Assembly: GCA_027475525.1 (NCBI GenBank)
Contig: JAMWFC010000117.1
Coordinates: forward strand, 4,884,183-4,948,182
DNA length: 64,000 nt
Origin: Macrolepiota albuminosa
Taxonomy: Eukaryota; Basidiomycota; Agaricomycetes; Agaricales; Agaricaceae
Direction: 5' to 3'
Translations under genes and position numbers: made by a program
Part shown: positions 23,504-48,611 of the stretch, piece after piece
Numbering within the stretch: position 1 is the stretch's first letter
Layout: each line of letters starts with the position of its first letter
The notes under the pieces: model-generated
What the model saw: only the letters and a program-made list of their open reading frames with translations
What the model was told of the DNA's origin: nothing
Database searches by the model: none

Positions 23504-23527
23504 ATGTAAGTGTATGTAATGAAACGC

Positions 23528-23627
23528 NNNNNNNNNNNNNNNNNNNNNNNNNNNNNNNNNNNNNNNNNNNNNNNNNNNNNNNNNNNNNNNNNNNNNNNNN
23601 NNNNNNNNNNNNNNNNNNNNNNNNNNN
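23528..23627. other. Assembly gap of 100 N
   Basis: Exactly 100 unknown bases, the conventional placeholder for a scaffold gap of unknown size. Confidence 0.99.
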
Positions 23628-23822
23628 CCCTACCCCCCCATCCCCTCCCCCTCATTCAGTCAAAATATAGTTATGCTCTAACCAATCATAATCAGTATCA
23701 AAATTGGCATTGGATGTATTATATATTACCTGCGTTGACCCCAGGGCACCTGTACCCAAAATATGGGTCAAGACGGCCGTGTCTTGTCGTTGAGGATAGT
23801 GAAACCAAAGTCACGCTTGTTG

Positions 23823-23944
23823 ATAATCGGCGGTCTATTTGGCGATCACGTTCCATGCAGATCCGCTGATGCCGAGCACCCGATGATCGGCAGTGTATTC
23901 GGCGATCACATTCCATGGGGATCCGCTGAATGCCAAGCATCTTA
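23823..23944 (+). repeat. Two degenerate tandem repeats of about 60 bp
   Basis: Units start at 23823 and 23882 and share GGCGATCAC, TTCCATG and GATCCGCTGA, with about 80 percent identity by eye. A partial third unit may follow to about 23975. No gene is seen between the gap and 24386. Confidence 0.6.
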
Positions 23945-24386
23945 GGATCGACCATGTATGTGATCGGTGATATATTGTACCATTTGAGGCTTTGGAACGA
24001 CACACTGCATAGGTCTTACGCAACTGGCAAGGAGTCTAAGTGAGTAATGACATTCCCATCCATCCTTTACGTTCAATTTCTACGACCTTTATATTGTATA
24101 AGCGTTGCATATGACATTCACAACACATGAAACAGTAAATGACGAAAACGCACTTGAAAAGTGTAGTTAAAAATACATGAACTTTGCAGAGGATTCAAAA
24201 CTATCTGTATGGACACAACGCTCTTATCGTTACTTACGTACAAACTCGGGGTTTATTTTTATTTATTCATCTAAGCGATGTGGCGGTGGCTATGCATTCA
24301 TAGCGGTAATAGAAGTAGAATCTTGATGCCATCATAACGAAAGGGTAGATAAGAAAAACATTTTGACCATCCATCCTTCTTTGACT

Positions 24387-25717
24387 ATGTTGCGCCACTC
24401 TACCCCTAACCGTTCGCCTACGCCACCCCAGCCTGGTGATAACTCAACTGCTTCATGGCTACGCTACGAGGAGCGCCGAGAAATATACGAGCGCCGTCTA
24501 GACGAGCAGCGGATAGCAGCCCTTTTCCAGCAGCGTAAGTAGTTTTCCGGCATGTCTGCGTACTCACCAGGCACGCCCTCCTCCCCCCCAGAGATGGCAG
24601 GCCGGTCTATGGGATCAAGTTCATCGACACTGACATCCGACCCATTGGCACCAGAGAGGAGCATGCAGACAGCCGGTCCGAGCAGCTCAGTCCAATCAGC
24701 ACCTGCTGCGAGCTCGTCGACGTGTACTGAACAGCCTGTTCTCGGGCCCGGTCAGGTACGGCGAGTCCCGGCAACGAAGCGGATCCCTCAAGCCGATGTG
24801 ACACCGGAGCAATTTGCCGCGGCCCAAAACCGGCACCGTGGCCCTCCCACCCTCAAGTGGTGTCAGAACAAGGGTCCTGTGAGTGTTCTCCTGGCCCGGT
24901 CGCGCGTCCTAACCATCACCAGTGCTCGTTATGCTCACGTCGAGGTGAACCATGCGAATTCGAGGCACCAGTGGCAAAATCTCGCAGGGATAATTCCGTG
25001 TGTGTTTCCTGTCGAGCCCGGCACGAGCGATGCTCCGTGGCTCAGGCATGGAAGGCATCTTGCATGAGCAAAGAACAGGGGTGGGACATGACCTGGGTGC
25101 TGAGCCAGTTGGCTAGTGCATCCAGATCAAGGGCCGAGGAGTCGGGTGGGGCACAGGCTGGGAGTTCATCGAGAGGAAGGAAGGCGAAGGCGTCGACTAC
25201 ACAGCAGGATAAGGGGAAGCGCAGAGCTTCACCTGCGTTGATGGAGGAAGCGCCGACGGCTCGGCATGATAAAGGAAAGCGCAGAGCATCGCCGGAGCCG
25301 TACTTCGGGGAGGCAAGGAATTCGGGTTCAATATTATTTAATCGCACGCACGGATACGTGAATACAAAGTCATCGAGTGCGGGTAATGTGCCCAGGTCAA
25401 AGGGCGAGGAGTCAAGTGGATCGCGGCTTGAGGGTTCATCGAAGGATGTGGGGTCGGTTGAGGCGCAAACTGAGGGTTCGTCGCAAGGAGGAAGGGTGGA
25501 AGCGTCGTCTCTGCAACAGGACAAAGGGAAGCGCCGAGCTTCGACCGAGTTGGTGGAGATAATAGGGTACAAGCGTGCGCGGAGGTCCCCAAGCTTGGAC
25601 ATGTCAGATATCCGTGAAATCCCCCCGATACCTGCCCAATCGTCTATTGATGAGGAAACGCGCCAGCAGTTGCAAGAGGCCATGGCAAATGGGTACCGGG
25701 TAACATTACAGCTGCAC
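24387..25717 (+). pseudogene. Cys-cluster/coiled-coil gene, 5' part, interrupted by the gypsy element
   Basis: ATG 24387 opens exon 1 (24387-24534, MLRHSTPNRSPTPPQPGD...), followed by exon 2 (24592-24878) and exon 3 (24923-25717). Introns start GTAAGT and GTGAGT; phases are 1 and 0. Codon 146 begins a cluster C-x2-C-x6-C-x15-C-x2-C-x6-C (CSLCSRRGEPC...CVSCRARHERC), reminiscent of a fungal Zn2Cys6 cluster but with wider spacing, so metal binding is inference. Three DKGKRRAS repeats look like basic nuclear-localisation motifs. The frame is open to the TGCAC target site, where the gypsy LTR begins. Removing one TGCAC and the element rejoins the frame precisely with 36660. The gene is a paralogue of the antisense gene inside that element. 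Confidence 0.7.
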
Positions 25718-25720
25718 TGT

Positions 25721-25874
25721 CACGACCCCTCCCCTCCGGGCCCACCCCGGGACACCCCCGGAACACCATCCGGGACCCTCCCTCTGACCCCACAGGACAC
25801 GACCCCTCCCCTCCGGGCCCACCCCGGGACACCCCCGGAACACCATCCGGGACCCTCCCTCTGACCCCACAGGA
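25721..25874 (+). repeat. 77-bp direct duplication in the 5' LTR
   Basis: Copies start at 25721 and 25798. The duplication is absent from the 3' LTR. Confidence 0.9.
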
Positions 25875-26144
25875 CACGCCCCACCATCACGACCGCCGAC
25901 ACCGCCATCACGCGCATCAAGGACCGCCATCAGCCGCCACCAGCCCCGATCAACGACCAGATCACGCGGCCCATTTCTGGCTATCACGCATCACGCATCA
26001 CAGCTCCCTCCGCGCCCCACACGCGCGATCCCGGTATACAGCCCCTGCCGCTACTCAATGACCCCCGGAGCCCATCCCAGACACCCCGGAACCCCGAGAC
26101 CGGGTCCCGTAGTACTTATAGCGTAGTTCCTTGTTGTATTCGCC

Positions 26145-26156
26145 AGTCTTGATATT
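26145..26156 (+). promoter_or_regulatory. Presumed transcript 5' end and self-primer of gypsy-A
   Basis: AGTCTTGATATT is the exact reverse complement of the bases next to the 5' LTR (26598-26609). In Tf1/sushi-type elements the first bases of the RNA fold back onto the primer site, which implies that transcription starts about here. Gypsy-B keeps the same pairing. Confidence 0.6.
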
Positions 26157-26232
26157 GCATAACTGTTACTTGGATACTGCGTGCCCTTTGTTTGACTGGT
26201 ACGCCTTGTTTGGTATGCTTCGACTGGCACGC

Positions 26233-26386
26233 CTTAGTATTCGCGTGCTATAAGTTTGGTACGCACTTCGCGACTCTTAAGTTACTAACTTGGTCTCGTC
26301 TTAGAACCTCTTAGTATTCGCGTGCTATAAGTTTGGTACGCACTTCGCGACTCTTAAGTTACTAACTTGGTCTCGTCTTAGAACCT
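26233..26386 (+). repeat. 77-bp direct duplication in the 5' LTR
   Basis: Copies start at 26233 and 26310. The duplication is absent from the 3' LTR at the corresponding place (about 36368). Confidence 0.9.
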
Positions 26387-26597
26387 CTGGTTCACGACTC
26401 GACCCCCTCTAACTTTCAGCCACCTCCAACCCAAAACTCCCGGACTCTAGTCCCCTCTCCCGGGATTACCCCTGTCCTCGTCTTGAACCCCGGAGTCCTA
26501 GCCCCGGAGTTCCAGACACCCGAGTATTCGTAGATCAAGTCCGCATCGTAAGGGCGTTGCTTTCCCGGAAGGCCCCCGACTCAGCGGAACCTGACAT

Positions 26598-26609
26598 AAT
26601 ATCAAGACT
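26598..26609 (+). other. Self-priming primer-binding site of gypsy-A
   Basis: AATATCAAGACT lies one base after the LTR end CTGACA. It pairs perfectly over 12 bases with LTR positions 26145-26156. Confidence 0.6.
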
Positions 26610-26629
26610 CTCTCCTTACACCGTTCTTG

Positions 26630-29324
26630 ATGGCTACGTATACTCACACTTACTACCCCACCGGGTACCAGACCGACCCTTACGGACGCCCGGTACCCGA
26701 CCACTACTCCGCGCAGACCCCTCGCCCTGTCTACCCGCCTCTCCCGTACGAACCTCCATACCTCCACCGCCACTGGGCCCCCAACCCGTCCCTCTACGAC
26801 CTGGGGCCCTCAGCCAGCTGGGCCCCTCCGCCCAATTTAGCCATGGCGCGACTCATGGAGGTCCCCTCGTACCGGAGCATCCCCGGGGGCCTGCCGGAGA
26901 CCCCGCCCGATTCCCCCCAGCGAGGGCCCCTTTGCACCCACCCCCTACTACGGTTACCAGCGCCCTGTCCCCCAACCCCGAGAACCCCGAGGACCCCCCT
27001 ACCCCGACTACCCCCTTCGTCATTACCCGGCCGCCGCCCCACCCGCTCGAACCCCTCCCTCGCCAATGGGACGACGACGCCTCGAGGAGTATGAACGGCA
27101 ACGGGACGAGGTACTCCGCTCCCTCAGGATCTCACCAGAGGACTTCGCGCAACGGACCAGGACGCTGCTCGTGGAATTCGGACACGACGACTTCGAAGGC
27201 ACTCCGGAGGAATGGGCTCACTGCCTGGTCAAATTCGGGGATCGCCTCACGCGAGGAGAACTCCCGGAGCAAACCATGGTAAAGTATAGGCGCAACACGA
27301 TCCTCCGGGAAGAGTTACAGCAACTGCTCAACGAAGTCCACGCGTCCCCCTCCTCTCGGCCCATCAACGACCCCGCGGACCCAGGTCGCTCGATTCACAT
27401 TCAACAGGAACCCCCGGAACCGGTCCCAGCAGCCCCGGCAGCCCCCACGGTCCCCACCCCAGAGCAACGACAACGGGAAGAACGGCAGAACGCCTCAGCC
27501 ATATTACGGTCCCTCAACCTGGCTGGAGGCCTCTTCGATCAACCCGCAGCCTGCACGGTAGGCTTGTCAACTCGCCGCAGGGCTAACTCCGTCCCTAGTA
27601 CCTTCGAGACCTGGGGACAGCCCCAAAGACCCCTGGAACCCCTCCCGCAAACAGACAACGCCCGACCCCCGGCCCCGGCGAACCCCGGCAGACCCCGCGC
27701 GGACACCCCTAGCACGGACGACACGCTGTGCTACATCGACGAGCTTACGCGTGGCAACAACGAACCACGTCCCACGCCCGTCCCGGTACTGCCCCCTATG
27801 TCAGCCCCGGTCCCTCCGGAACGCAACTTCCGCTGCGATCCGCCACCCCACTTTGACCTACGAAACCCCCCGCGACCCCCGATGCAAGCCCGACCCTCCC
27901 GGATTGAATGTCCCCCACGCAACCCGGCACCCGACCCAGCACCTAACCCCCCTCCACCCGACCTGACACCGCCGAACCCTCCCCGACCGCCTCCGCCACC
28001 CCCAGCTGAACTTCGAGGACGACCCCCAGGCCCTCCACCTCCGCCACTCCCTGCGTGGAGACCCGGGCCCCCTCCTGGCAGGAACGAACCCCCTTGGGAC
28101 AACGGACTTCCCGGGCGTGGACCCCCAGGTGAGCCACCCGGAGGAGGACCTCCCGGCGGGTGGGGTCCCGCCCTTGGTGCTTTCCCTCCTCAAGGAGGAG
28201 GGGGTAATCATTACTACTATTATTACAATGCTGGCCCCCCTCCCCGTAACGCTGCCGGACCGGACGACGCTCGCGACGCCCTCGCCCGCGAAGGACGACT
28301 GGACATCCAAAAGCCCGACGCTTTCACGGGCCGGGACCCCCGAAAATGGCATACCTTCCTCACTCAGTGTCTCAATACATTTTAGGCAAAGCCGCTCACG
28401 TTTCAGGTTGACAGCTCCCGGGTGGCCTTTGCCGCGTCGTACCTCCAGGGGATCGCCTTCGACCACTACACGGCCCTCATCCAGTTCGACCCCAACAACC
28501 CGGCACTCGCTTGCTGGCAAGCCTTCGTCGACGAGTTCTCCGGGAAATTCGGGATATACGACACCGTGGCCGAGGCCGAGGACAACCTCTTCAATCTCCA
28601 GATGCGCTCGGAAGAACGTTTCACCACCTTTATCGTACGTTTTGAGAAGGAAGCTTACGAAACAGGTTGGAACTACAGCGCCCTCCGGTACGCCCTCCAC
28701 CGCGCCCTGCCACAACGCATCAAGGACGTCCTCCGACTCGCCCCGAAACAACCCTCCTACGACGGATACAAGGCCCTCGTCATGCAGATCGACCAACGCT
28801 ACTGGGAAGACCGCAGCGAGTATTCGAATTCCCGACCCCCCTGGAACCCTAGAGGAGGACCCCCTTGGCCCTCCGGCGAAGCTCCCAACCCCCAAGGTCG
28901 AAATCCCGGTCCCCCCGTGTTCCCTGGCGGCCGACCCCCGGTGAGTTGCGGCCCGCCCAATGCTAACCCCGGCAGCGGCGCCCGCCCCCAGGCCCAACTC
29001 AACGCCGCCGTGGCCGCCCACGACCCGGGCGACGTGCCAAGCCCCGAGGAACCCCCGGAAGACCCCGAAGACTTCGACTTCGACGACGAGCGGGACGAAG
29101 AGGCCCTCCGAGCCAACCGGCTTCAAAAGAAGGGACGACCCTGGATCGAAGTCCCGACAGATGTGCAGGAACGACGGAGAAGGGAGGGTGTCTGCATACT
29201 CTGTGGTGAGAAAGATCATTTCATCTCCGAGTGCCCCAAACGACAGGTCATGGGACGTGCCACCTGGACCTTCGAAGGGGAGGACGCCACCTACGAGTAT
29301 TCGGAAAACGACCCGGCGATTTAG
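26630..29324 (+). pseudogene. Gypsy-A Gag
   Basis: ATG 26630 opens a Pro/Tyr-rich N-terminus (MATYTHTYYPTGYQ). A gained C at 26927-26930 shifts the frame, which then continues from about 26935 through a helical region (EEYERQRDEVLRSL), a long Pro-rich linker and the capsid-like retrotransposon Gag domain (AFTGRDPRKWHTFLTQCLNTF, TAG at 28383-28385, then AKPLTFQV...FAASYLQGIAFDHY). It ends with a C-x2-C-x4-H-x4-C knuckle (CILCGEKDHFISEC) near 29195. Apart from the TAG, 27066-29324 is open. The same TAG is present in gypsy-B. The 77-bp duplication at 29268 overlaps the Gag end. Confidence 0.85.
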
Positions 29325-29421
29325 ACCCGGAAGACGCCCTAAATACCTTCGAAGGGGAGGACGCCACCTACGAGTATTCGGAAAACGACCCGGCGATTTA
29401 GACCCGGAAGACGCCCTAAAT
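29268..29421 (+). repeat. 77-bp direct duplication at the Gag/protease junction
   Basis: Copies start at 29268 and 29345. The duplication repeats the Gag C-terminus and stop. Once it is removed, the protease frame is +1 relative to Gag. Confidence 0.9.
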
Positions 29422-29423
29422 GC

Positions 29424-30746
29424 GGAATCGACCCCAACGTCTTCTCCGCCCCGGTCTCACATCTTCGCTCTACGACGCTCATACAGGACACCCTCACGGC
29501 TTACCTACCCTCCCACTCTTCGCACTCCCTCCTCCTCAAAACCCGCCTCACCCCCTCCGGAACTCCCCTCAACACCCTCGTCGACAGCGGCGCCACCGAC
29601 AACTTCATCGATGAAGCATGGTTTATCCTCGCCCCGGAACCCGCCCAGCGACTCCCGGTCCCGGTACGACTCTGCCTCTTCGACGGCAACGCCTCTACGG
29701 CGGGGGACATCACTCATTTTGTGCGTATGCCCGTTACCTTCGCCAACGGACAGACTCACACCCTCCGAATGTTGATAACCAAACTCCACCCTTCCGCACC
29801 CCTGGTCCTAGGGCTCCCGTGGCTCCGGGACACTAACCCCCGCATCGATTGGCGACACCTCACCCTTCGCCTGACCCGGGACCCAACCCCCGACGACCAG
29901 CAACTCCCCTTCGACATCTCCCACTCCTCGAACCCAACCCCGAAGGACCCCCCGGACGAGCCCCCACCACCCCCTGGGCTCCAGTCCCGCTCGTCCCAAT
30001 CCTTCGTCATCAATGCCAGGCTGGACGGCACCCTGGGACCGGTATCGGCCCTTATCGACAGCGGAGCCACCGGGGTTTTCATTAGTGACGCCCTCGACCT
30101 CCCCCATGACTCCCTCGACCAGCCCCTCCACCTGCAGCACCTTGACGGCACCCCCTCCTCCTCCGGGCCCATCCAAAGGTCTCACTCGGGACGCGTGACC
30201 CTGGACAACAACTACGAGTTCACTTCCAACTTCCTGGTCACGCGACTTCACGAATCAACCCCGATGGTGCTGGGACTACCCTGGCTGCGCGACACGAACC
30301 CCGACATCGATTGGAGGACGCTCACCATGACCTTCCCGGGACCCGAAGACCACCCCTCGACCGCCGTGCACCTCCGGGCCCTAGGAAACGACCCGACGCC
30401 CGACACCCCCGGGACGACTGCCACGCCCCCCACGCATGCACCACCCACGCACGTCCGCGACCGCAAGGCCCCTGATCGACCCCCGAACATTCCTCGGAAC
30501 AAGTACAAAGGGCCAAACTACCCCTGCCGGTCTCAGACACGCGTCACACCCGCTCCGGCCGATGCTCCCGCAACCCCGATCGACCCGAGCGCACTCGACA
30601 TTAGGATCATTGGGGCCGCCCCCTTCGCCCGCCTCATGAGGGAGGGAACTCCCACGTTTCAGCTGCACACCTCGCCTTCTCTCCCGGAAGAACACCTACG
30701 AGGGGACGCTATTCCCCCGGAACAGAAAACTGAGGAGCAAATCCTC
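29424..30746 (+). pseudogene. Gypsy-A pol, N-terminal part: two aspartic protease domains
   Basis: The first protease reads NTLVDSGATDNFIDEAW (near 29569-29620) and ends with VLGLPWLRDTNPRIDW near 29810-29855. The second reads PVSALIDSGATGVFIS near 30040-30085 and ends with VLGLPWLRDTNPDIDW near 30265-30320. Both keep the D-S-G-A active-site motif and the L-G-L-P-W-L strand. A retroviral-type protease works as a homodimer; two covalently joined halves could act as a single-chain enzyme, which is inference. A basic, proline-rich linker follows. TGA at 30747-30749 ends the frame between QIL and EVVLPEY, where Arg (CGA) is expected. Confidence 0.8.
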
Positions 30747-30749
30747 TGA

Positions 30750-32210
30750 GAAGTAGTTCTCCCAGAGTATCACAAGTTCGCTGACGTATTCTCCGAAGGA
30801 GACGCCAAGGAGATCCCCCCTCATCGCCCCTATGATCACACCATCGACCTCGAGGAAGGAGCCACCCCCCCTTTCGGCAAGGTCTACAACATGTCGGAGG
30901 TCGAACTCCGGGCCCTCAAGGACTACCTCGACGAAATGCTCGGTAAGGGATTCATCCGACCCTCCGCCTCCGCCGCCGGAGCCCCGGTTCTATTCGCCAA
31001 GAAGAAGGACGGCTCGCTCCGACTCTGTGTCGACTACCGGGGACTCAATAAGATCACCAAGAAGAACCGCTACCCGCTCCCGCTCATTGGCGATCTGGTC
31101 GATCGACTCCGCAGTGCCAAGGTTTATACGAAGATTGACCTCCGCTCCGGTTACAACAACGTCCGCATCGCCCCAGGGCACGAGTGGAAAACCGCGTTCC
31201 AAACGCGGTATGGTCTGTTCGAGTACCTTGTGATGCCTTTCGGAATGACTAACTCCCCCGCCACGTTCCAATACTTCATGAACGACATCTTCCACGACAT
31301 GAGCGACGTCTTCGTGATCGTCTACCTGGACGACATCCTCATTTATTCCGACTCACCGGAGGATCACCAGAAGCATGTCCGGCAAGTCCTCGAGCGCCTC
31401 CGGGAGCACAACCTCCACGCCAAGCCCGAGAAGTGTTCATTTCATACGGAAGAGGTTGAGTATCTTGGCGTCATAGTATCCCCGAATGGCGTTCGCATGG
31501 ACCCCCACAAGGTCGAGGCCATCGTCAACTGGCCGCAGCCCTGGAACGTCAAGGAAGTACAGTCTTTCTTGGGTTTCGCTAACTTTTACCGGAGGTTCAT
31601 AGATAACTACTCCAGTATCACGAAACCCCTCAACCGGCTCACGCGCAAGGACGTCGCCTGGAACTGGGACAGTAAGTGCCAGAGTGTCTTTAACCTACTC
31701 AAGGAGGCTTTCACGACCGCCCCCGTACTCCGGCACTACGACCCGACCCTCCCGATCATCCTGGAATGTGACGCCTCCGACTACGCCATCGCCGGGATCC
31801 TCTCGCAGATGGAACCTGACGGAGGGGAACCCCGGCCCGTTGCCTTCTACACCCGGTCCATGATCGACGCCGAGCTCAACTACGACATCTACGACAAGGA
31901 GCTCCTCGCCATCGTCAAAGCCTTCAAGCAATGGCGAGCCTACCTCGAGGGAGCCCGGCACCGGTCTACGACAAGGAGCTCCTCGCCATCGTCAAAGCCT
32001 TCAAGCAATGGCAAGCCTATCTCGAGGGAGCCCGGCACCGGATCCAGGTCTACTCGATCACAACAACCTGCAGTACTTCACCACGACCAAGCAGCTTAGT
32101 CGACGGCAGGCCCGATGGTCCGAGGTCCTCTCGGAATACGACTTCACGATCCAGTACCGCCCGGGACGACTCGGAGCTAAACCCGATGCCCTCACCCGTT
32201 GTCCGGACGT
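30750..32210 (+). pseudogene. Gypsy-A reverse transcriptase and RNase H
   Basis: RT motifs in order: [20 protein letters not shown] (about 30990), [20 protein letters not shown] (about 31240) and [10 protein letters not shown] with the catalytic Y-L-D-D at 31323-31334. A thumb/connection region ([13 protein letters not shown]) follows, then RNase H with [14 protein letters not shown] and [16 protein letters not shown] 77-bp duplication (31888) and a one-base loss near 32055 (before HNNLQYF) break the frame. After these the protein continues at 32056-32210 ([21 protein letters not shown]). This is the standard layout of Ty3/gypsy pol and is otherwise intact. Confidence 0.9.
31888..32041 (+). 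repeat. 77-bp direct duplication in RNase H
   Basis: Copies start at 31888 and 31965 and differ at two positions, both transitions; the others checked look identical. The mismatches could mean that the two flanking contigs came from different copies of the element. Confidence 0.85.
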
Positions 32211-33783
32211 CTATCCCAAAAAGTCGTTCGAGGCGGAACACAATGCGTTCAATCATCGCGTGGTGATCCCTCCCAAACATCTGAATGCCGTACTGATCTT
32301 AAACGACGAAGGAACCCTGAACCAGATCCGCCGCGCTCCCCGAGACAAGTACTTCACCGATCACGACCCCCGAAACTCTTCCGACAAAACCGACCGGGAC
32401 CCCGCCTTCTCCTTGTCCCCCGACAAGAAACTCCTCCTCCGGGACAGCCGCATCTACGTCCCGGATCATGCCCAACTTCGCTACGACGTCCTCCACCAAC
32501 ACCACGACCACAAACTCCGGGGACATCCTGGAATACGTAAGACCCTCCAGCTCATCTCCCGGACTTACTTTTGGCCAGGATTGAAGAAGGACGTGACCCG
32601 TTACATTCGATCGTGCGAGCCCTGCCTCCGGGCCAAGGTCCCCCGACACCGACCGTACGGACTCCTGAAACCCCTGCCGGTCGGGCGACGCCCCTGGTCC
32701 TCCATATCTCTAGACCACATCGTCGAGCTCCCGGAATCTGAAGGGTTCGATGCTATTCTCGTCGTTGTGTGCAGGCTGACCAAACAGGGCATCTTCCTAC
32801 CCTGCCACACCACGGATACCGCCCTGGACTTCGCCCGGCTGTTCCTCGAGCACGTCTTTGCCAAACATGGACTCCTGGACAACATCGTCTCCGACCGTGG
32901 CCCTCTCTTCGTGTCCAAGTTTTGGACTTCCCTGTGTAAGGCACTTGAAGTAAAGACTAACCTCTCTACCGCCTACCACCCCGAAACCGACGGCCAAACC
33001 GAAAGGGTCAACCAGTCCCTCGAGCAGTACCTCCGGCTGTACGTCAACTACTTGCAGGACGACTGGCGCGCCGAGCTCCCCCTGGCCGAGTTCACCTACA
33101 ACAACACACCACACTCTGCCACCGGGGTATCACCCTTCTTTGCCAACAAGGGATACCACCCTCGACTGACGCTCTCGCTCCGGGACATCCCGTCGCACGC
33201 CGCCCACAAGGTCGCCTGGGATCTCCAATCCCTTCACGAGTTCCTCCGGGAAGAGATCGACACCGCGAACCGGGCCTACGTGAAACACGCCGACCGGAAA
33301 CGGGAAGACACCCCCGACTGGGCCCCCGGGGCAAAGGTATGGTTAGATCGACGACACCTCCGCATCCGCCGGCCCTCCCCAAAACTCGATCACAAGCGTC
33401 TCGGCCCGTTCAAAATATTGAAGAAGGTCTCATCCCACGCCTACAAGATCGAGCTCCCCCCGGGACTAAAAGGTCTGCACCCGGTATTCCACGTCCGCCT
33501 CCTGGAACGACACCCCCCGGATCCTTTCCCCGAACGGCGCCCCGAGCCCCCTCCCCCGGTCGAGGTCGAGGACGAGTACCACTACGAAGTTGAGGACATC
33601 CTCGACTCCCGGAACATTCGTGGACGACCCCACTTCCTCGTACGGTGGAAGGGATATGGCCCGGAAGACGACACCTGGGAACCACGCAAAAACCTCGAAG
33701 GCGCCCTCGACAAACTCCGGGACTTTCAACAACGGCACCCGGGAAACGACCTCCCCGGGCGCAGGACTCACAGACGGCAGTAG
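32211..33783 (+). CDS. Gypsy-A integrase with C-terminal chromodomain
   Basis: Uninterrupted frame. An H-H-C-C zinc region ([15 protein letters not shown]...CEPCLRAK, about 32495-32640) is followed by the DDE core: Asp in [10 protein letters not shown] (about 32710), Asp in [10 protein letters not shown] (about 32890) and Glu in [18 protein letters not shown] (about 32975-33020). A GPF-like region ([12 protein letters not shown]) near 33390 is followed by a chromodomain ([18 protein letters not shown], then [16 protein letters not shown], about 33585-33680). This identifies a chromovirus; the chromodomain is expected to direct integration to marked chromatin. The stop is at 33781-33783. The antisense passenger gene follows 255 bp downstream. 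Confidence 0.9.
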
Positions 33784-34038
33784 TGGGCGTAACCCCCGCC
33801 TCTGGGCTCAGTAGGGATTCAACTCCCATGTATATTTTCTGCTTTCCCTTTCTAGATCTTACTCTCTTTAGTACTTTCTTCACAGTAAACACCCCGGATT
33901 CTGGGCAAGGTACACTTTCTCGTTTTTCCTACCACTTTACTTACATTTTGAGTACGACGGCCGAATATATACATTTTCTAGAAGATACATTATAGTTACA
34001 GACCAGGAAACCGGCAAACGGCAAGAAAACGGGGACCC
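33784..34038. other. Gypsy-A spacer between integrase and antisense gene
   Basis: Follows the integrase stop; no gene seen. It serves as the 3' flank of both converging genes and could hold their terminators, but no clear signal is visible. Confidence 0.4.
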
Positions 34039-35799
34039 CTAGATCTGGGGCCCCGAGTCACCCTCACCCCCCCCTCCCCTCGGCCAACCCCGGAAATCTT
34101 CCCCCACCCCCTCTGGACCGTGCTCTCGCAACACCTCCTCGGCCAGCTGCTCCCAAGACGGGAGCTGCTCGCCCTCATCCAAAATGCGCTCGAACCACGA
34201 TCCCGGGGCTGGGACGTTCCTCCGGCAGTGCGCGCCCACCAGCCTCTCCAGCAAATCTAGACCCCGCTCCACCCCGGGGCTCCCCGCCTCCAACCGTAGC
34301 CCCTCTTGGAGAGACGCAAGCGCCGCGGCGGCCCCGTCGAGGAGCAGACGGTGCTCCCGAGCCCAGCCTGGAAATATTAGTACGACCTAGGCACGAAAGG
34401 GGGGGACACTCACTCAAGGAGGCCATGCGCCCGATGACCACGTCCCGGCGCAAGGCCTCGACCAACCCCGGGCTCGAGGGACCTCGCTCCAGGAGCCCAA
34501 CCCCCTGCCCCAGCCTGGCCCTCATGGCGTCCAGCTGGGCCTCAGCTCCCCCTCGGGCCACCCTCGCCTCCTCCAGCTCCCGGAGGGCCATCTCGCGGTC
34601 CTCCTCCAGCCTCCTCCGGAGTGCCGCCTCCTCCCTCGCCCCCTCCTCGCGCTCCCCCCGCTCCCGGTCAGCCTGCTCGAGGCGCTCCTGCAGAGCCCTC
34701 ACTTCAACGTCTAGCGGTCGCCCGGACAGGGGAGAGAACGTCGCCGGGGAGAGGCGCGCTGAGGGAGTCGGGGGCGGGGTTGCCGCAGGCAGACGCGCCC
34801 TCTTAGAAGGCCCCAGGGAGGGACTAGGCGACGCCCGCCTCTTCCCCTTGTCGGGGCGCCCCCCGCGACCCTCGTGACTGCTGGCCCCGGCCCAGGTCAC
34901 CCGACGGGTGACCAGGACCACGGGCCGCCCCCGGCCCCCCACCCAAACGACCCCTCGACCCCCCGACCCCCCACTGGGCGCCTCAGCGGGCGCCGCGGAC
35001 CCCTCCCCCACCGGCTCCACCACCCAGTCTCGGTCCTCCACTCCCATCCTCCGAGTAATCCCAGCCAGCGGCCACCCCTGCTCCCGGGAGACACACCGCG
35101 CCCTCCACAGCGCCGATACGGAGCACCGCTCATGGTTCTGGCGGCAGGCCTCGCAAACGGACGTATCGCGGCAGGACGAGGGGCCCGGAACCTCGAACAG
35201 GCAAGGGACCACGCGCCGGGCGCAGTGCAGGCACTGCACCGAGATCAGCACAAAGACCAGGAGGTGAGAGCCCACTCACCGGTCCGTTGCTCACGCACCA
35301 GGCGTGGGCAGGTAAGCCCCGGAGCCTCTCAAGGGCCCCCTCAAACAACTCTTGCGTCACGCCCTCCCACGCAACACGTTGACCCTCCGGGACTTCTGAG
35401 ACGGCCCCTATCGCCATCCTGGAGCGACGAAAGCAGGGGGCAGGAAGCCTAGGACGAGGAGGGGGTTGGGGGCGGGGGGGGCGGACAGTCATCCGCGCAA
35501 AGGTAGGCGCGGGACAACTGGGGTGGGACTCTGGGAGAACGCTGGGGCCAGCCTCAGGAACAGACTCCGGAAGTCGGCTGGGACCCGCCTCTGGGGCCGG
35601 AATGTTGCGTTGTTCTGAAAAGGAAAGGTCAGTGGGGTAAAGGGGCGGTGCAGGAGTACTCACGTTGCTCGACGAGCGCCGCCACGTGCTCCCGGTCAAG
35701 GTGAGCCTGGTAACGCGCGTCCCGGGCTTCCCACGCCATGAGGGGCGCGACCTCGTTCGTTTGCGGGGGCGTCGGGGAATGCGTTGGCGTACGCGACAT
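34039..35799 (-). CDS. Antisense passenger gene of gypsy-A: Cys-cluster/coiled-coil protein, four exons, 539 residues
   Basis: Exons 35799-35664, 35614-35280, 35233-34414 and 34367-34039 sum to 1620 nt with no internal stop. Introns are GTGAGT...TTTTCAG, GTGAGT...GTGCAG and GTGAGT...TTCCAG, with phases 1, 0 and 1. The protein starts MSRTPTHSPTPPQT. Exon 3 opens a cluster C158-x2-C161-x6-C168...C178-x5-C184-x2-C187-x6-C194 (CLHCARRVVPC, CEACRQNHERC). A DKGKRRASPS basic motif, a Glu/Arg/Ala-rich coiled coil (ERLEQADRERGEREEGAREE region) and a conserved C-terminal block (HRLLLDGAAA...CRRNVPAPGSW) follow. All three intron positions match the host gene at 24387-37528. Nuclear or DNA-related function is only inferred. 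Being antisense, its introns would survive reverse transcription of the sense genomic RNA. Confidence 0.8.
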
Positions 35800-35915
35800 G
35801 GTTGAACCTTAGGGTAAAATTTTTTTTTTCGATACGTGGCAGGTCAGGTGCCGGATCCCACGGTTGACCCCCGGTCCAAACCACCGGCTACGCGCGCCTT
35901 GGAGGGTCTCGGCGC

Positions 35916-35929
35916 TGAGGGGGGGGTGA
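35916..35929 (+). other. Polypurine tract of gypsy-A
   Basis: A purine run of GAGGGGGGGG followed by TGA directly precedes the 3' LTR. Gypsy-B has a comparable GAGGAGGGG run before its 3' LTR. Confidence 0.7.
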
Positions 35930-36654
35930 TGTCACGACTCCTCCCCTCCGGGCCCACCCCGGGACACCCCCGGAACACCATCCGGGACCCTCCCTCCGAC
36001 CCCACAGGACACGCCCCGCCATCACGACCGCCGACACCGCCATCACGCGCATCAAGGACCGCCATCAGCTGCCACCAGCCCCGATCAACGACCAGATCAC
36101 GCGGCCCATTTCCGGCTATCACGCATCACGCATCACAGCTCCCTCCGCGCCCCACACGCGCGATCCCGGTATACAGCCCCTGCCGCTACTCAATGACCCC
36201 CGGAGCCCATCCCAGACACCCCGGAACCCCGAGACCGGGTCCCGTAGTACTTATAGCGTAGTTCCTTGTTGTATTCGCCAGTCTTGATATTGCATAACTG
36301 TTACTTGGATACTGCGTGCCCTTTGTTTGACTGGTACGCCTTGTTTGGTATGCTTCGACTGGCACGCCTTAGTATTCGCGTGCTATAAGTTTGGTACGCA
36401 CTTCGCGACTCTTAAGTTACTAACTTGGTCTCGTCTTAGAACCTCCGGTTCACGACTCGACCCCCTCTAACTTTCAGCCACCTCCAACCCAAAACTCCCG
36501 GACTCTAGTCCCCTCTCCCGGGATTACCCCTGTCCTCGTCTTGAACCCCGGAGTCCTAGCCCCGGAGTTCCAGACACCCGAGTATTCGTAGATCAAGTCC
36601 GCATCGTAAGGGCGTTGCTTTCCCGGAAGGCCCCCGACTCAGCGGAACCTGACA
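35930..36654 (+). repeat. 3' LTR of gypsy-A, 725 bp
   Basis: TGTCACGACT...CCTGACA. It is followed by the target duplication TGCAC (36655-36659). By eye it differs from the 5' LTR at six sites, all transitions. Confidence 0.95.
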
Positions 36655-36659
36655 TGCAC

Positions 36660-37528
36660 CACACACGAGAGGATCTTCAGCGGGAACGACGCGCTCGGGA
36701 GGCCATGCGGGAAGAGAGGAATGCGGCTATTCGTGACAGGGACAGAGCATTTGGAGACAGGGATGCCGCTTTAGTGGCACGCGTGGCTATCGAAGACGAG
36801 TTGGCTGGGTTGCAAGCATGAGTAGAGAATATTGAGAATTGAGGGTCGGACAATGCGGCACCTGGGGCGTCGGAGATAGAGGAGGTACAACAGGCGATAC
36901 GGCGAGTGGAGGCAGCACAGCCACGGATTTTAAGGAGGAGGAACTGGCCGTTGAACGCGTTGGCGTCGTCCCATGAAGATGTTATGCGTAAGTGACCCTA
37001 TGTCCCATACCATATACCTGATACATCTTCATGCCCAGGAATGGTGCGCGAGTACCGACTGTTATTGGACGGTAGTTCCTCGGCGTTTGCCCTCATCCAG
37101 CAAGGGCTGCCCCAGCAGATCCCACCAGAGATTACGCAAGGAATCGATCAGTTGGGAGGTCTGTTAGCAGCGCACCGACGCAGGAATGCAGTGACACCGG
37201 GAACTTGGATGGAAGTGGCAGCGGACGCTGGCCAGCCCATGCCAACATGGAATGAAATAGTCACGATGTTGGTATCGACTTTAGAAGAAGAAATGACAAC
37301 AGCGGAGGCGGGTGAAGCCGCAGTGATGGCAGCAATGACGGGAAGAGGGGCAGGACTTTAGAAGAAGAAATGACAACAGCGGAGGCGGGTGAAGCCGCAG
37401 TGATGGCAGCAATGACGGGAAGAGGGGCAGTGGCAACAGCGGAGATGGTCGAAGCGGAAGCAGCAGCGACAACGACCGTGGGAGAGACGGAGGAGGAAGA
37501 TGAGGTTGGGAGGAGGCCCCTGTTGTAA
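36660..37528 (+). pseudogene. Cys-cluster/coiled-coil gene, 3' part
   Basis: Continues exon 3 in frame from codon CAC at 25715-25717: HTREDLQRERRAREAM and a strongly charged coiled coil. TGA codons at 36819 and 36840 interrupt it. Exon 3 ends at 36987 (GTAAGT) and exon 4 starts at 37039, reading VREYRLLLDGSSSAFALIQQ and later HRRRNAVTPGTWMEV. These align with HRLLLDGAAA and HCRRNVPAPGSWFE of the passenger gene. A 77-bp duplication (37277) shifts the frame; without it the protein runs to GETEEEDEVGRRPLL and TAA at 37526-37528. Intron phase 1 here is the same as in the passenger gene. Confidence 0.65.
37277..37430 (+). repeat. 77-bp direct duplication in host exon 4
   Basis: Copies start at 37277 and 37354. 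Removing one restores the exon's frame to the TAA at 37526-37528. Confidence 0.9.
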
Positions 37529-38028
37529 TTTCTTGCTCGCAACCCTAAATATTGTACATTGTATATGTCGTACTGTATATGGTATATGGTTGAACGTTGT
37601 ATATAGCGTACTACAGATGTAGATAGTGTACTACATTGGACTAACGGGCTATACATCAGGACGGTGTGACACCGACAATGTTTCATTGCGGACGTTGTAA
37701 GTGATCGGATGACTTGGACATGCTAATAATCAATTGTATTTAACAAGCCTACGGTATCACAATCAGAAAATTGAAGTATTAAACAGTGTAGGGGAATAAC
37801 AAATCATGATACTATGATACCGATTAAGGTGTTTCGGTAATCCTTTTACCTACTGGCAATAAAGCTCAGTTAGCTGAACGTTGACGATCCAGGTTGGCAT
37901 AAAGACATCATATACGAAAATATGAACGGCTGACTAGTAGTAAGCACGAATGGCACCCGATTGTGTTTTCTTACCTAGGGAGGAGGACGTCGAAGTGAAA
38001 GTTCCCTACGGAACCCAGTCTCACTTGC

Positions 38029-38182
38029 GCCTCCTCTCCTAGGCTAGCTCACGTGATTGTCGCGATTCATCAGGCCCTTACATTGGTCTTCTGAAAACTG
38101 GCTGTGCCTCCTCTCCTAGGCTAGCTCACGTGATTGTCGCGATTCATCAGGCCCTTACATTGGTCTTCTGAAAACTGGCAGT
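38029..38182 (+). repeat. 77-bp direct duplication
   Basis: Copies start at 38029 and 38106 in noncoding DNA. A low-complexity tract follows immediately. Confidence 0.9.
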
Positions 38183-38189
38183 TTAACGT

Positions 38190-38194
38190 CAATA

Positions 38195-38234
<40 letters not shown>

Positions 38235-38281
38235 AAAAAAAAATAATAATAATAATAATTAAATTTAAAAAAAAAAAAAAT
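38190..38281 (+). repeat. A/T low-complexity tract
   Basis: A-runs, an alternating AT stretch and AAT repeats in succession. Such tracts commonly break short-read assemblies. Confidence 0.9.
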
Positions 38282-40477
38282 GTGAAAAGGTAAACTGTTA
38301 TGCCATTTCCAATGTATCAATTTCCGATAGAAAAAAGTCTTCAGACAGAGGAAATTTGCCGGTTTCTATTGTAAAACCTAGCTACGAAACAGGCAACAGG
38401 TTTCTTTGCCCTTTTTTTGATAAGAAACAAATTATGGCCTCAGTAGTGAAGTATTAATGTAATTATTAGCTGCACCGATACAAATGATTAATAAAGGGTC
38501 TTCTACTATTATTACGAAACCGTTCCACTAAAGACGTTTAATCTATAAGAGCTTTACTGACAATAGAGCAAAGACGACGTACCATTCAATGTTCCTCATG
38601 AGAATTGCGCCTAAGGCTCCAATGACGGTGGACACCGAACACCGCATAAACCCAGCAGCGTGTGTTTAGTCTTGACGTCCAGCTACGGGTATAGAATGTA
38701 TATATAGATATTCTACTAACTACAATAAAAATAACTAGAAACAGAACGTTTAGTATGAGTGTTTCGATATGCATAAAGCGAACATACCTCTAGTCGAGCA
38801 TGAAAATATTGGCCTTTATGCCCAGATCTACTTGATGAGGTATCGTTACGTTGCCGCACTGCGCATAACATTAAGCAAGTTCGATCGTCAAGAACACTTC
38901 ACATACCAAATCCTTTCCACATGAAGTGAAATCAGGCTCATTAGGCTCGCGGCGTACTATATGTTTGGCGACGATGAGCTTTGCGTTCCACTCGACCTCT
39001 TTCGAAGCATCCGAGTAAGTCCAAACTTCATCAAGCCGTTGATTTTCGTGCGTATGGAATGCGGCAACGAGAATTCCTCGTCCATCGAAAGCTTTCGTTG
39101 TGAGATGGGTCCGTTTGTCACGATGCGTATAGCTCCTGACTCAAGGTCAATTAACGAGCGAACCAAGAAGTCAAAACATACAGAAAAACGAGATGAGCGG
39201 GTCTAATGTGATACAGCACATCTGAATACCTCTCCGTCACCTGGAGAATCCCCTGACAAGACATGGCGCGCATCTTGATACCAGAGGGGCGATGGGAGGA
39301 TGTGTGAGGGCACCACAATAGGATATCGCGGTAGTGCTCCATGTGGTAGTAAATTGAGGATGAAAGAACGTGTTGGGTGTCTTTGACCGTATGTCTTGCT
39401 AGTGCAAACAACAAAACCCCAGTCCGTAACAGCATTTGAAAATGCTGAAGTCCGTAACATCATTATACGAGCATCCCGGGAGCACTATAGATTATGGCTC
39501 GTCGACGCACAACGGCCGCTTAAACAGCGAATGTCTCGCTGGTAAGGGTCGTAGCGTGCCGAGTCGTCTCTGCCATCATACTTAGAGGGAGGAGCACCAC
39601 CAAGGGGCACACGAGGGAGCGGATAAAGACATAAAGGAAAAAATAGTGGGACGACGTAGAGAAGCTCGGATTGGAGAAGACATCAAATCGAGTAGTACGC
39701 GCCTTGGTTTTGGGAAACGAAGCATATAAATACCTCTGCTTAGGCAAGGAGATACTTAGAATCATGATGTCAATGATACGGTGGCGGCGACCTGTATTTG
39801 TCACGAACACATCAATAAGGGATATAGAAACAGCGACGGTGAACGACCACGAGAAAACACATACGATTCGGAGTAGAGTCTGAAGTAAGTAGGGAGGGAA
39901 TCCGAATAACTGTCGGAAGAGTCTGAATAAGAATATTTAACTTTGAGCATAGCCCGTTGTTGCTCCATGTTAAGCCGCGGCGCATTAATAATCGGTCGTA
40001 ATGACGGCTTGTCGCATGGCAGACTGTCGAAATCAGTAAGTGCCATGATCTAGTAAATCAATGATTTGTTGTCATATATCTATTGCGCTGGATAACAGAC
40101 CTCTCAAGTGACAATAGGTGTTCATTAGATAGTGGCGATATGCTGAATCTTTCGGGGGGTATATCAGCACTGGTATTCAGGGATCGCTCTCCACAGAAGG
40201 CAGCCAAGGAAATAAGTCATAATGCATGTGTCTGCTCCGATATATGGTTTTCGCGTGGCGGCTATTATCTGCGATCTAATATCGTGTCCTGTCGTGCCTG
40301 TACCAGGCAGGACATAGAAAGACTCACAATTAGTCATCGAAATAGGCCTATTTTTCAGAGACCGCTTGATCTATGGGTCGACTGGACATCCAATACATCT
40401 GGCAAGGAAAGAACGTCAGCCAAATAAAATTGGAACATTACGGACCGAGTGGGTGTAGAGAATGTGTTAAAACAGAC

Positions 40478-41455
40478 CCAACCGTGGCTACATCCTGGCG
40501 TATGTAGATATCAAATATTAACATAGTAAAGCTACGGAACAAATGACGTTAAAAAGGGAAGACACTATTCCCACACATATATGTAACCGTACTAGTATCA
40601 CATGACGTTAAAAAGTGAATATATTATTCCCACGCATCTCTGTAACCGTACAGACTTACAGTAGTATCACATGACGTTAAAAAATGAAGACATTACTCCC
40701 ATGCATACATGGTCTACTGCTGACTAAGTAACCGTACAGACGAACGGTAGTATCACATGACGTTAAAAATCGAAGACATTATTCCCACGCATTTCTGTAA
40801 CCATACAGACAAACGGTAGTATCACATGACGTTAAAAATCAAAGACATTATTCCCATGCATCTCTGTAACCGTACATACGTACATATAGTATCACATGAC
40901 GTTAAAAAGTGAAGACATTACTCCCACGCGTACATAGTCTACTACTGCTGACTAAGTAACCGTAACAGACGAACGGTAGTATCACATGACGTTAAAAATC
41001 GAAGACATTATTCCCATGCATTTCTGTAACCGTACAGACGTACGGTAGTATCACATGACGTTAAAAAATGAAGACATTACTCCCACGCGTACATAGTCTA
41101 CTGCTGACTAAGTAACCGTACAGACAAACGGTAGTATCACATGACGTTAAAAATCGAAGACATTATTCCCACGCATCTCTGTAACCGTGTATAGTATCAC
41201 ATGACGTTAAAAAGTGAAGACATTACTCCCACGCGTATATAGTCCACTACTGCTGACTAAGTAACCATACAGACGAACGGTAGTATCACATGACGTTAAA
41301 AATTGAAGACATTATTCCCACGCTTACCAGAAGGAAGTAATGGCAAATGGCAACAAGAACGAACACAGTCACATGATGGCAAAAATCGAAGACATTTTTC
41401 CCACACAAAGTCCGCTGCACAGAAAAACCTCGATCTATTCTAGATCTCGGAACAC
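40478..41455 (+). repeat. Minisatellite-bearing repeat, copy 2
   Basis: Starts at CAACCGTGGCTACATCC and ends near CTAGATCTCGGAAC, like 6540-7005. About eleven units carry TATCACATGACGTTAAAAA, GAAGACATTATTCCCACGC and CTGTAACCGTACAGAC. Shorter units of about 70 bp alternate with longer ones that carry an extra GTCTACTGCTGACTAAG block. It truncates the gene fragment that follows. The regular spacing superficially resembles repeat-spacer arrays, but the units are homogenised minisatellites. Confidence 0.75.
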
Positions 41456-42862: not shown

Positions 42863-45461
42863 CTCCCACTTGACTGTGACGGAGGAGAGACGACTCCCAA
42901 AAATTCACGATGCTTTTCGAAGGTTTCGCGTGGCAATGCCTTTGTCAACATATCGGCAATCATTTTCTGGGTAGGAACATATTCAAGTCGAATATTTCCA
43001 CAAGCAATATGCTCTCAAATGAAATGGAAGCATATATCAATGTGTTTGGCATGAGAGTGACCGACAGGGTTCTTAGACAACGCGATGCTTCCAGTATTAT
43101 TGGTGTGGATGATAGTTGCTTGTACTTGCTCGAAACCGAGATCTTTTAACAGATTTTGAAGCCAAATTGCTTTCCAGGTTGCATTGGCAGAGGCAATATA
43201 CTCTGCCTCCACTGTCGACGTCGCTGTTACCAATTGTTTCCTGGATGACCAGGATACCAAGCTTCCGTCGATGTCATAACACCATCCACTAACAGAGCAT
43301 CGATCATATTGATCTTGAGCCCAATTGGCATCGCTCCACCCTACTAGTCAAATTTGCCCATGCCCGAGGCCGCCCAATTTAAGGCAGAACATCTTTGTGC
43401 CTTTCAAGTACTGCAGAACGTGTTTACAACCCATAAGGTGAGGGATACCTGGGTTATTAGAAAATTGAGCTAATAAACTGACTGAGAATTGAATATCAGA
43501 TTGGGTTTGAGTCACATATAGCAATGAGCCAACTAGAGATAGATAATTTAGCCCGTTTGAATATCGAGCGTAATTATCACATTCTTCTTGTGTGTGTGGG
43601 CATTGAAGTTGAGAAAGGTCATGATTAGTCTGCAGAGGAGTTGAAACGGGATGGCAAGAAGTCATTCCAAAGCGTTCTAAAACGGAGTCGATACAGATTG
43701 ATTGATTCAAGTAAATAACTTGATTACGTCAATCCTGTTTGATTTGAAGGCTGAGGATGTAATGAACCTCGCCAAGGTCAGTAATATCGAAGTTCTTGTT
43801 CATGTCCCGTTTGAACGAAGTGATTCTGCAAATGTTCTTACCCGCTATTGCCATGTCGTCGATATATATGACAACAATGAGCAGAATTTGACCTTTAGAA
43901 CGGAGAATGTACAAGCAGTTGTCGGCATGCGAGGGTTCAAATCCCAAGGTCATAAGAACGTCATGTAACCTCTCTTTCCATTTGCGACCGATTTCCTTTG
44001 GTGCGCGCATATATATCTCTTCATCGAGATTTCCCTCTAAATATGCGCCCACAACATCAATTTGATGTATCTCGAAGTCAAGAGTAGCAGCTAAGGTCAA
44101 AAACACTCGGAAAGTTGTGAACTTGGCAACCGAGGAAAACATGTTGTTATAATTGATGCCAGGGACTTGCAAAAAACCTTGAGCTACAATTCTGGCTTTG
44201 TATTTTGCGTGATTGCCGCATTCATCAAGCTTCTCCTTTAGTACTATTTTGCTTCCCATGGCTCTTTTGCCTGGAGGTAACTCATCAATTTCCTCAAAAA
44301 CTCGTTTTTTGCGAAGCTGATTGTATTCGGATTCTATAGCTCTTTGCCAGCCATTGGCCTGTGGAGAAGCTAAAGCATCTTCAACACAAGGGCCCAAAAC
44401 AGCGACAAAAGCCACATGGCCTGAATCCTCTTTGTCATGACAATCTTGTTGATATCTGATTGGAATGCGTTTAGTACGTGTCGAAGGCTCACGGTAGGGC
44501 AGATCTTGCCATCTCAACGACTTTTGAGGCGCAGGAGGTACTTCAATCGGATTCGTGACGGGTGGAGTTGAGAGGGAAGGTGGCACTGAAGGGTACTGTC
44601 ACTCTTCAATTGGCTTTTCTTCTCTTACCTCATCATCAGCAAGCGGAAGTTCCTGTAATTGAGTCTTGACCTCGGACTCAGAGCTCATAGAAGGAATGTC
44701 GACCTTTTTTGGCACATCCAATTCAGGATAGACCGCTGTATCAATCATCTTGTTGATTTCCTCAGGAGATGATTGAGTTAAACCAGGGTCAAAACATGTG
44801 AGTTCACTTGGAGTATCATCTTCGTAGAACTCGACATCCCTTGAGGATATTAACTTGCCATTTTCTAGGTCTTCTAATTTATATCCTTTGGTCTCATTGG
44901 ACCACCATCCGAGCATTCAAACCCTCATGGCACGAGATTCAAGCTTGCCTTGTCAAACTTCCTTCGGAATGTGAGCCCAACCCAATGATCCAAAGATTAA
45001 GAGATGGGATAAATCAGGTACACGCCCATTCCACTCTGTCAGTGGAATCTTTCCTTGAAGTGCTGACATTGGCATGATCGACCATATATAGACAGCATAA
45101 AGAAATGCCTCTCCCCAATATCGCAAGTCCATTTTTGCCCCGTGAAGCATACTCCTTACCATTTCCATTACTACGGCTATAGCGCGTTCTGCAATTCCAT
45201 TTTGCTGTGGCCGGTAGGGATTCGTAGTCTGATGTTTTATTCCGTTGAGTGCACAGAATTTTCGCATCATAGAGTTAACAAATTTGCTACCATTGTCAGT
45301 TCAGATAATCTTAACAAACTGACCGCCATTGCGCTCATACATAGCTGTGATATCACACACATTGTCTCCTACTTCCTCCTTAGTTTTGAGGAGTCTCCTA
45401 GTTGGGAAACGTTTGCTGGCTTTGACGATTACCATTGCATAGTGATTTCCATCCCAAGTGG
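42863..45461 (-). pseudogene. Copia-B integrase core, RT and RNase H
   Basis: One frame holds through this entire stretch and is interrupted only by TGA codons at 45301, 44953, 44917, 44599, 43729, 43348 and 43015. It reads WDGNHYAMVIVKASKRF, TDNGSKFVN, YRPQQNGIAERAI (integrase Glu block), then RT with DFEIHQIDVVGAYLEGNL and VIYIDDMAIAG (YIDD), and RNase H with SSRKQLVTATSTVEAEYIAS and KHIDICFHFI. Between APKEIG and RKWKERLHD the usual L-Y-G-L-K-Q block is deleted. At 45301 the stop stands for Arg of R-T-D-N-G, and at 43015 for the Arg of H-F-I-R-E. The C-terminus (PR-ETFEKHREFLGVV) runs into the LTR. Confidence 0.85.
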
Positions 45462-46539: not shown

Positions 46540-46544
46540 GTGGC

Positions 46545-48280: not shown

Positions 48281-48284
48281 AACC

Positions 48285-48611
48285 TGACGCAGCATATAAG
48301 CAAACAGATGTATTCGAGTACGAATATAATATAGTAAGTATCTGGAGAGTGGAAATTGTAAGATAATATGTAAGTAATAAGATACAAGCAAGACTCACCT
48401 GGAGAGTGGAGATCATAAGATAATCCATCTCCAGGTGTGTCTCAACATAATATACAGTTGAAGTGATGAGACAGGAGGACGTCATGCATAAGTAATCAAT
48501 ATGGAGTTTTTAAGACATGTACGTAGAAAAGAGAAACATACGAATTATGACTTAATATATGACGCAAGTGTTTCATAGTGAGTCCAGAGTCACGAGGCAT
48601 TTCCCTCGACA
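48285..48611 (-). repeat. 5' LTR of copia-B
   Basis: Minus strand TGTCGAGGG...GCTGCGTCA, followed by the primer site GGTTATGGGCC (48284-48274). Ends correspond to the 3' LTR at 42593-42862. Confidence 0.85.

Follow-up and report, generated by a model that had tools for sequence, protein, structure and literature searches.

HBZ of HTLV-1 is a retroviral bZIP protein that acts as a nuclear regulator and whose mRNA is spliced. The VANC proteins of plant VANDAL transposons are element-encoded, trans-acting factors that relieve the silencing of their own family. In LTR retrotransposons of plants, antisense genes are known as aORF-3R, e.g., maize Grande gene23, rice RIRE2 and Silene Retand (TRP28 domain), for which a nuclear or DNA-binding role is suspected and the function is described as unknown (PMC7264820, PMC11963269; statements on cited papers refer here and below to the available portions of their text). 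The first of these papers calls the origin of such extra genes unknown, notes no similarity to other TEs or viruses, and places the antisense promoter of HTLV-1 in the 3' LTR; the second mentions HBZ. In fungi, the gene brtn lies antisense between pol and the 3' LTR of Boty, an element of Botrytis cinerea/Sclerotinia (PMC7264820, PMC8365987), and several lineages of DNA transposons carry TET/JBP genes, which have been proposed to counter methylation (Kojima 2025, PMC12730594). Thus a first-pass annotation of the locus studied here was right that antisense ORFs are known from plant gypsy elements, while its statement that there is no fungal precedent is contradicted by Boty.

The locus lies in a 64,000-nt stretch of the Macrolepiota albuminosa genome (hereafter the window; contig JAMWFC010000117.1, positions 4,884,183 to 4,948,182), and the genome searched with it comprises 100.1 Mb in 129 contigs. 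On the plus strand of the window (25718-36654) lies a Ty3/gypsy chromovirus, recognized by the order of reverse transcriptase (RT), RNase H, integrase and C-terminal chromodomain and by a TG...CA LTR pair with a 5-bp target-site duplication. The 5' LTR (25718-26596, plus strand) is longer by 154 bases, equal to two 77-bp tandem duplications within it that probably arose during assembly, while the 3' LTR (35930-36654, plus strand; TGTCACG...CCTGACA) measures 725 bp; the target-site duplication TGCAC occupies 25713-25717 on the left and 36655-36659 on the right. Aligned in two overlapping pieces, the LTRs show 5 differences over 513 positions and 1 over 287, and such near-identity, together with the 5-bp duplication, indicates a young insertion. 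Between them, all on the plus strand and assigned by Pfam, are gag with its zinc knuckle (28386-29324; the same frame at 26841-28385 lies upstream of an in-frame stop), an aspartic protease region (29343-30749), reverse transcriptase with RNase H (30750-32099), and the end of RNase H followed by integrase and chromodomain (31864-33783). The matches to RVT_1, RT_RNaseH_2, Integrase_H2C2 and Chromo (E 1.8e-14) follow one another in gypsy order; that to the integrase core, rve, fell below its cut-off.

Tandem duplications with a 77-bp period recur along the window: 13 were found via exact seeds (369-522, 13131-13284, 14419-14573, 16473-16627, 16695-16849, 16968-17121, 20300-20454, 25721-25878, 26233-26388, 29268-29421, 37277-37430, 38029-38179 and 45798-45951), and a fourteenth, of 97% identity, lies at 31888-32041. 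They most likely mark places where an assembler run at k = 77 joined sequences. Since those at 29268 and 31888 coincide with breaks in the gag-pol frame, these breaks cannot be read as mutations without the reads. Elsewhere in the window, 53541-57726 holds a related gypsy remnant (~74% nucleotide identity to the LTR end plus gag, 67% to the LTR) in which no match to RT, integrase or the antisense gene was found; 43015-49379 (minus strand) holds Copia-type remains, with a gag carrying a CCHC knuckle (Pfam, 47267-48394) and pieces of RT and RNase H recognized by eye only; and an ORF at 8371-9486 (minus strand) has kinase/phosphotransferase matches (APH, E 5e-8, above the cut-off; Pkinase, below it).

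The interval from the integrase stop (33783) to the 3' LTR holds a four-exon gene in reverse orientation to the integrase (minus strand, 35799-34039), which encodes 539 amino acids plus stop. Exon 1 (35664-35799) begins with the ATG at 35799 and is followed by exon 2 (35280-35614); exon 3 (34414-35233) encodes, from 35233, a six-cysteine motif and then the basic stretches DKGKRRAS and KRAR and a coiled-coil-like region, and exon 4 (34039-34367) a conserved C-terminal block that ends in the stop TAG at 34041-34039. The three introns measure 49, 46 and 46 nt, lie in phases 1, 0 and 1, and all read GTGAGT...AG. As judged from the exon coordinates and the LTR pair, the four exons with standard splice sites, the 540 codons (stop included) and the placement downstream of integrase on the opposite strand of an LTR retrotransposon, all claimed in the first-pass annotation, were borne out. 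The ATG is 131 nt from the edge of the 3' LTR, and the 130-nt stretch between them (35800-35929, read on the minus strand) is conserved in 19 copies, with a mean column conservation of 0.87-0.95, compared with 0.92 for the first 20 coding bases; the nearest part of the LTR is mostly conserved likewise. Such conservation fits an antisense promoter in this stretch, putatively continuing into the 3' LTR, although the polypurine tract of the element sits there as well.

This arrangement is widespread in the genome. A DNA search with the gene gave 55 matches from the 40 scored of 658 candidates, while a protein search with exon 4 matched in all 150 scored (the best 150 of 770 candidates, a set therefore biased to intact copies), only eight of which contain an internal stop. 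Absence of the gene from every other element copy had been named beforehand as a finding that would speak against it; many copies in this genome carry it. In 28 of 28 tallied loci (L001-L028, all found through the gene and not an unbiased sample of elements), the gene is antisense to a downstream integrase, and in 27 of these an LTR lies directly upstream of it: 24 by the script rule, plus L023-L025, in which 77-bp duplications split the LTR match and the LTR is 130 nt off. Two of the loci, L020 (rearranged) and L028 (in which an additional, inverted LTR separates the gene from integrase), are rearranged elements with an LTR between integrase and gene. Among L001-L058, a series in which the same places are repeated, L055 is the sole locus without an integrase or RT match in its 1.5-kb flanks. 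When the search was begun at the integrase end instead, a gene match lay at the expected distance for at least 30 of the 40 best hits (gene places chosen by eye among the matches listed, distances checked by script). A gene-less element was sought among the ten other integrase ends; the one fetched carries the gene, at 79% nucleotide identity. Some subfamilies are near-identical recent bursts, in which seven places share one score and an eighth comes close to it.

Both the splice sites and the reading frame have been kept. Across 25 aligned copies (or 20, when L005-L008 and L056-L058, two sets of near-duplicates, are each reduced to one copy), donors are GT in 73 and acceptors AG in all 75 of 75 introns, in copies down to 75% identity. 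One candidate for intron loss, taken from copies with frames of at least ~400 aa over exon 4, was rejected: in L061, the only one read among the copies with long frames over exon 4, the intron is a 48-nt, in-frame, stop-free stretch. The frame is open to the end in eight of the 25 copies (L001, L005-L008 and L056-L058). These fall into three intact lineages, represented by the window copy L001, by L005, whose predicted protein is identical to that of L006-L008, and by L057, which differs little from L056 and L058. The remaining 17 copies contain stops or frameshifts, so that the word "intact" used in the first-pass annotation holds for the gene of the window copy; since L022, which lacks an early stop, is frameshifted in exon 4, the dN/dS estimates rest on L001, L005 and L057.

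Among these three lineages dN/dS is 0.22 (bootstrap interval 0.16-0.29), 0.18 (0.14-0.23) and 0.18 (0.14-0.23), i.e., well below 1 by the very measure that had been proposed as a check, whereas introns diverged about as much as synonymous sites (p of 0.28, 0.33 and 0.43 vs. pS of 0.25, 0.42 and 0.42 in the intact pairs). Between the window copy and 15 others, most of them decayed, dN/dS was 0.18-0.45. On the other hand, shifted control frames on the same strand gave 1.31-1.91 and reverse-strand frames 1.40-2.16, save one mirror frame at 0.30-0.36 with 7-9 stops: the predicted frame alone is both constrained and stop-free. Within the intact pairs, dN/dS is 0.08-0.13 in the cysteine region and 0.09-0.11 in the C-terminal block, but reaches 0.28-0.36 in the linker; for the first 45 codons it is 0.17-0.38. 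Thus the protein is under purifying selection. Moreover, in 16 copies the rate of C-to-T plus G-to-A changes at CpG exceeded that at the remaining C/G positions by a factor of ~1.3 to 3.4 (the base common to the three intact lineages being taken as ancestral), an excess expected if the host methylates these elements.

Each protein feature named in the first-pass annotation could be located: the cysteine cluster at aa 158-194, the basic DKGKRRAS at aa 285, a charged, coiled-coil-like stretch from ~aa 331, and the C-terminal block from aa 432. The coiled-coil-like stretch matched Pfam Cep57_CLD_2 (aa 331-381) at E 0.0056, below the cut-off. The cysteine motif reads C-x2-C-x6-C-x15-C-x2-C-x6-C. 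All 29 complete distinct rows, from three subfamilies, retain its six cysteines (seven of these rows have a stop in the stretch); the alignment used for searches holds 17 of the 31 distinct rows, and the complete rows left out keep the six cysteines as well. Fungal Zn2Cys6 clusters follow the spacing C-x2-C-x6-C-x5-12-C-x2-C-x6-8-C, which the present motif resembles, but its middle loop of 15 residues is longer than the x5-12 of that spacing. Searched whole, the window protein had no Pfam match above a cut-off and no match to Zn_clus, to TRP28 (Transposase 28, PF04195) or to a TET/JBP dioxygenase domain at E 0.1. Zn_clus was the commonest Pfam match among the members of the cysteine alignment (14 of 17 at E up to 10; best E 0.0061), with member 1 at 12.2 bits vs. 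a curated cut-off of 21, while three unrelated Pfam families matched one or two members. The predicted model of the cysteine domain (mean pLDDT 68.7, a low confidence) has a short helix at each C-x2-C and found no convincing fold match in the PDB, in which a sequence search with the alignment returned nothing at E 10. The C-terminal block was modeled as four helices (pLDDT 63), again with no convincing PDB fold match and nothing usable in Pfam; NCBIfam gave nothing usable, and searches of 5.8 billion proteins, a set of uncertain fungal share, turned up no relative. Given the weak Zn_clus matches, the long middle loop and the lack of a convincing PDB match, the protein is termed zinc-cluster-like here and is not placed in the Zn2Cys6 family.

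The gene and its neighbors seem, from sequence comparison, not to have one common history. The integrase dS of L001 is 0.11 to L007 and 0.14 to L057; the gene dS is 0.30 to L005 and 0.60 to L057. Of the 12 copies tiled against the window, L007 and L009 are 77-84% identical to it (nucleotides) in exon 2 and the cysteine region, and closer to it in the flanks: 94-98% at the chromodomain end, 92-95% in exon 1 and 91-96% in the LTR. The first integrase tile of L009, where the match is interrupted, aligns poorly (69%). This pattern of a diverged middle is absent in L002, L004, L023 and L026 and partial in the rest. Its simplest reading would be that the middle of the gene was exchanged between element lineages, e.g., by template switching.

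The gene also occurs beyond this family. In another gypsy family (C88:1049000-1054500; L059 and L060), the integrase is 79% identical in amino acids (dS ~1.1), and a gene 35% identical over 440 columns sits in the same place and orientation relative to it. A script placed introns 1 and 3 of this gene at identical positions and in identical phases, while intron 2, with the donor GTGCGT, was read from the sequence. A second homologue, which the first-pass annotation does not mention, lies in the window itself, on the plus strand, where the gypsy element was inserted within it and split it. Its left part (24387-25717) comprises exons at 24387-24534, 24592-24878 (for which alternative start acceptors can be proposed) and 24923 onward, and its right part (36660-37528) the remainder of exon 3, which extends to 36987 and contains in-frame stops, and exon 4 from 37039, with an approximate end; the right part also holds a 77-bp tandem duplication. 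This second homologue is 28-43% identical in amino acids by part and 55% in the cysteine motif, and it has the same three introns in the same phases, the window copy carrying in-frame stops. A gypsy context for it was considered and rejected: no integrase or RT match was found in the window beyond those of the inserted element.

The second homologue is part of a dispersed repeat that was found at 40 or more places and is linked, with respect to both order and strand, to Helitron-type helicase ORFs. In the window, parts of the repeat cover 22542-23526 and 23630-41452, with 100 N between them (23527-23626), and a stretch of Helitron-type ORFs covers 15158-22676 (minus strand), with PIF1 at 17752-19497 and DUF6570 plus Helitron_like_N at 20343-21938; no Pfam match was found in its parts 15158-16600 and 21939-22676. 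For 11 of 40 helicase places (that of the window included), the homologue lies no more than 40 kb away with the expected side and strand, compared with none on the other side and one on the opposite strand (counted with the 40 best homologue places, without hand-picked additions). Of the gypsy-type copies, 0 of 39 lie within 40 kb of such a helicase place. Such side- and strand-specific linkage indicates that the second homologue is a component of a large Helitron-type element or moves along with one.

On balance, we take it as probable that this is an accessory gene long resident in a clade of fungal chromoviruses and encoding, from a spliced antisense transcript, a nuclear protein that serves as a trans regulator or anti-silencing factor. 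A promoter in or beside the 3' LTR would drive the gene on the strand opposite to gag-pol, and the transcript would be spliced; the antisense arrangement would separate its expression from that of gag-pol. The introns would escape splicing from the genomic RNA, to which they run antisense, and would thus survive retrotransposition, an argument of the first-pass annotation that fits the data. In the protein, the zinc-cluster-like motif may contact nucleic acid, the basic stretches may be nuclear signals, the coiled coil may dimerize the protein and the helical C-terminal block may make a protein contact; acting in trans on the DNA or chromatin of the element, the protein would regulate transcription or relieve silencing. 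That a Helitron-linked repeat carries the same gene would argue for a task common to both element types, most plausibly that of counteracting or steering host silencing, and the CpG decay suggests methylation as the opposing force. VANC serves as a model for the role proposed here, although it comes from plant DNA transposons and no sequence relation is claimed; with HBZ, the gene has in common its antisense position at the 3' end and, as proposed here, a promoter in or beside the 3' LTR, a spliced mRNA and a nuclear regulatory product, a likeness for which no homology is claimed. Counted against a regulator are the weak Zn_clus matches, the lack of a convincing PDB match for either the cysteine domain or the C-terminal block, the failure to find relatives in the protein set, the locus without integrase or RT (L055) and the values of dN/dS that reach 0.45.

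Other explanations differ in what the gene, or its transcript, would do. A structural role, in which the protein would serve nuclear import, the targeting of integration, packaging or the export of RNA during the life cycle and not transcription or silencing, would suit the basic motif, the coiled-coil-like stretch and the helical C-terminal block, which fit a chaperone or import factor equally, and such roles have been discussed for plant antisense ORFs (PMC7264820); yet the six-cysteine motif and the Helitron-linked homologue favor a task useful across differing life cycles, and we regard a structural role as unlikely, if a serious contender. It is rather improbable that the antisense RNA itself is what matters, with transcription from the 3' LTR damping the element through dsRNA or interference and the protein being secondary: PMC7264820 discusses a regulatory role for antisense transcripts from other LTR elements, and the conserved upstream stretch agrees with such a role, but an RNA-only role predicts neither codon-level selection nor kept cysteines.

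The hitch-hiker, an option left by the first-pass annotation, would be host-derived cargo of no benefit to the element, kept by recent amplification only. The near-identical bursts of some subfamilies are what it would lead one to expect; retention of the gene between families whose integrases are ~21% apart in amino acids, and dN/dS of ~0.2 sustained over dS of 0.3-0.6, are not, and purifying selection thus makes a pure hitch-hiker very improbable. That the gene is a chance open frame in GC-rich DNA could be argued from other long frames that overlap it (e.g., plus strand 33996-34877), but splice sites kept over divergent copies and frame-specific selection rule this out for practical purposes. 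A further-reaching extension of the regulator or anti-silencing reading, which we put forward tentatively and with less confidence than the reading itself, is that a zinc-cluster-like regulator gene family passed, introns included, between a class I element, antisense in gypsy chromoviruses, and a large Helitron-type element, and that its DNA-binding half was exchanged as a module among gypsy lineages in an arms race with host silencing.

Compared with the plant aORF-3R genes, the present gene has the same place and orientation and likewise occurs in most copies of a family, and it differs in three respects: i) the protein is a different one, lacking a TRP28 match; ii) it has three conserved introns, and the word "intron" is absent from the available text of PMC7264820 and PMC11963269 where these genes are treated; iii) it has a homologue in another TE class, while the plant ORFs are described as without similarity to other TEs (PMC7264820). 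As far as the published descriptions allow a comparison, Boty, too, is an LTR element of fungi and carries its antisense gene brtn in the interval that follows pol and precedes the 3' LTR; its host is another kind of fungus. The TET/JBP genes offer a parallel for one accessory gene family common to unrelated fungal TE lineages (PMC12730594), with the difference that they encode a dioxygenase in DNA transposons, whereas the gene here encodes a six-cysteine protein in LTR retrotransposons and a Helitron-linked repeat. In a text-term search, the word "antisense" was absent from the available text of two papers on basidiomycete or fungal gypsy elements (PMC3411680, PMC2864245). What is new here, as far as we have seen, is the combination of conserved introns, this protein and a Helitron-linked relative, which was not met among the publications listed by the literature searches.

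A relative that is linked to a Helitron and retains the same introns, together with selection at the protein level, makes both the origin and the function of antisense genes testable. Moreover, a gene useful to two classes of TE with different transposition chemistry should act on a target common to both, e.g., chromatin or silencing.
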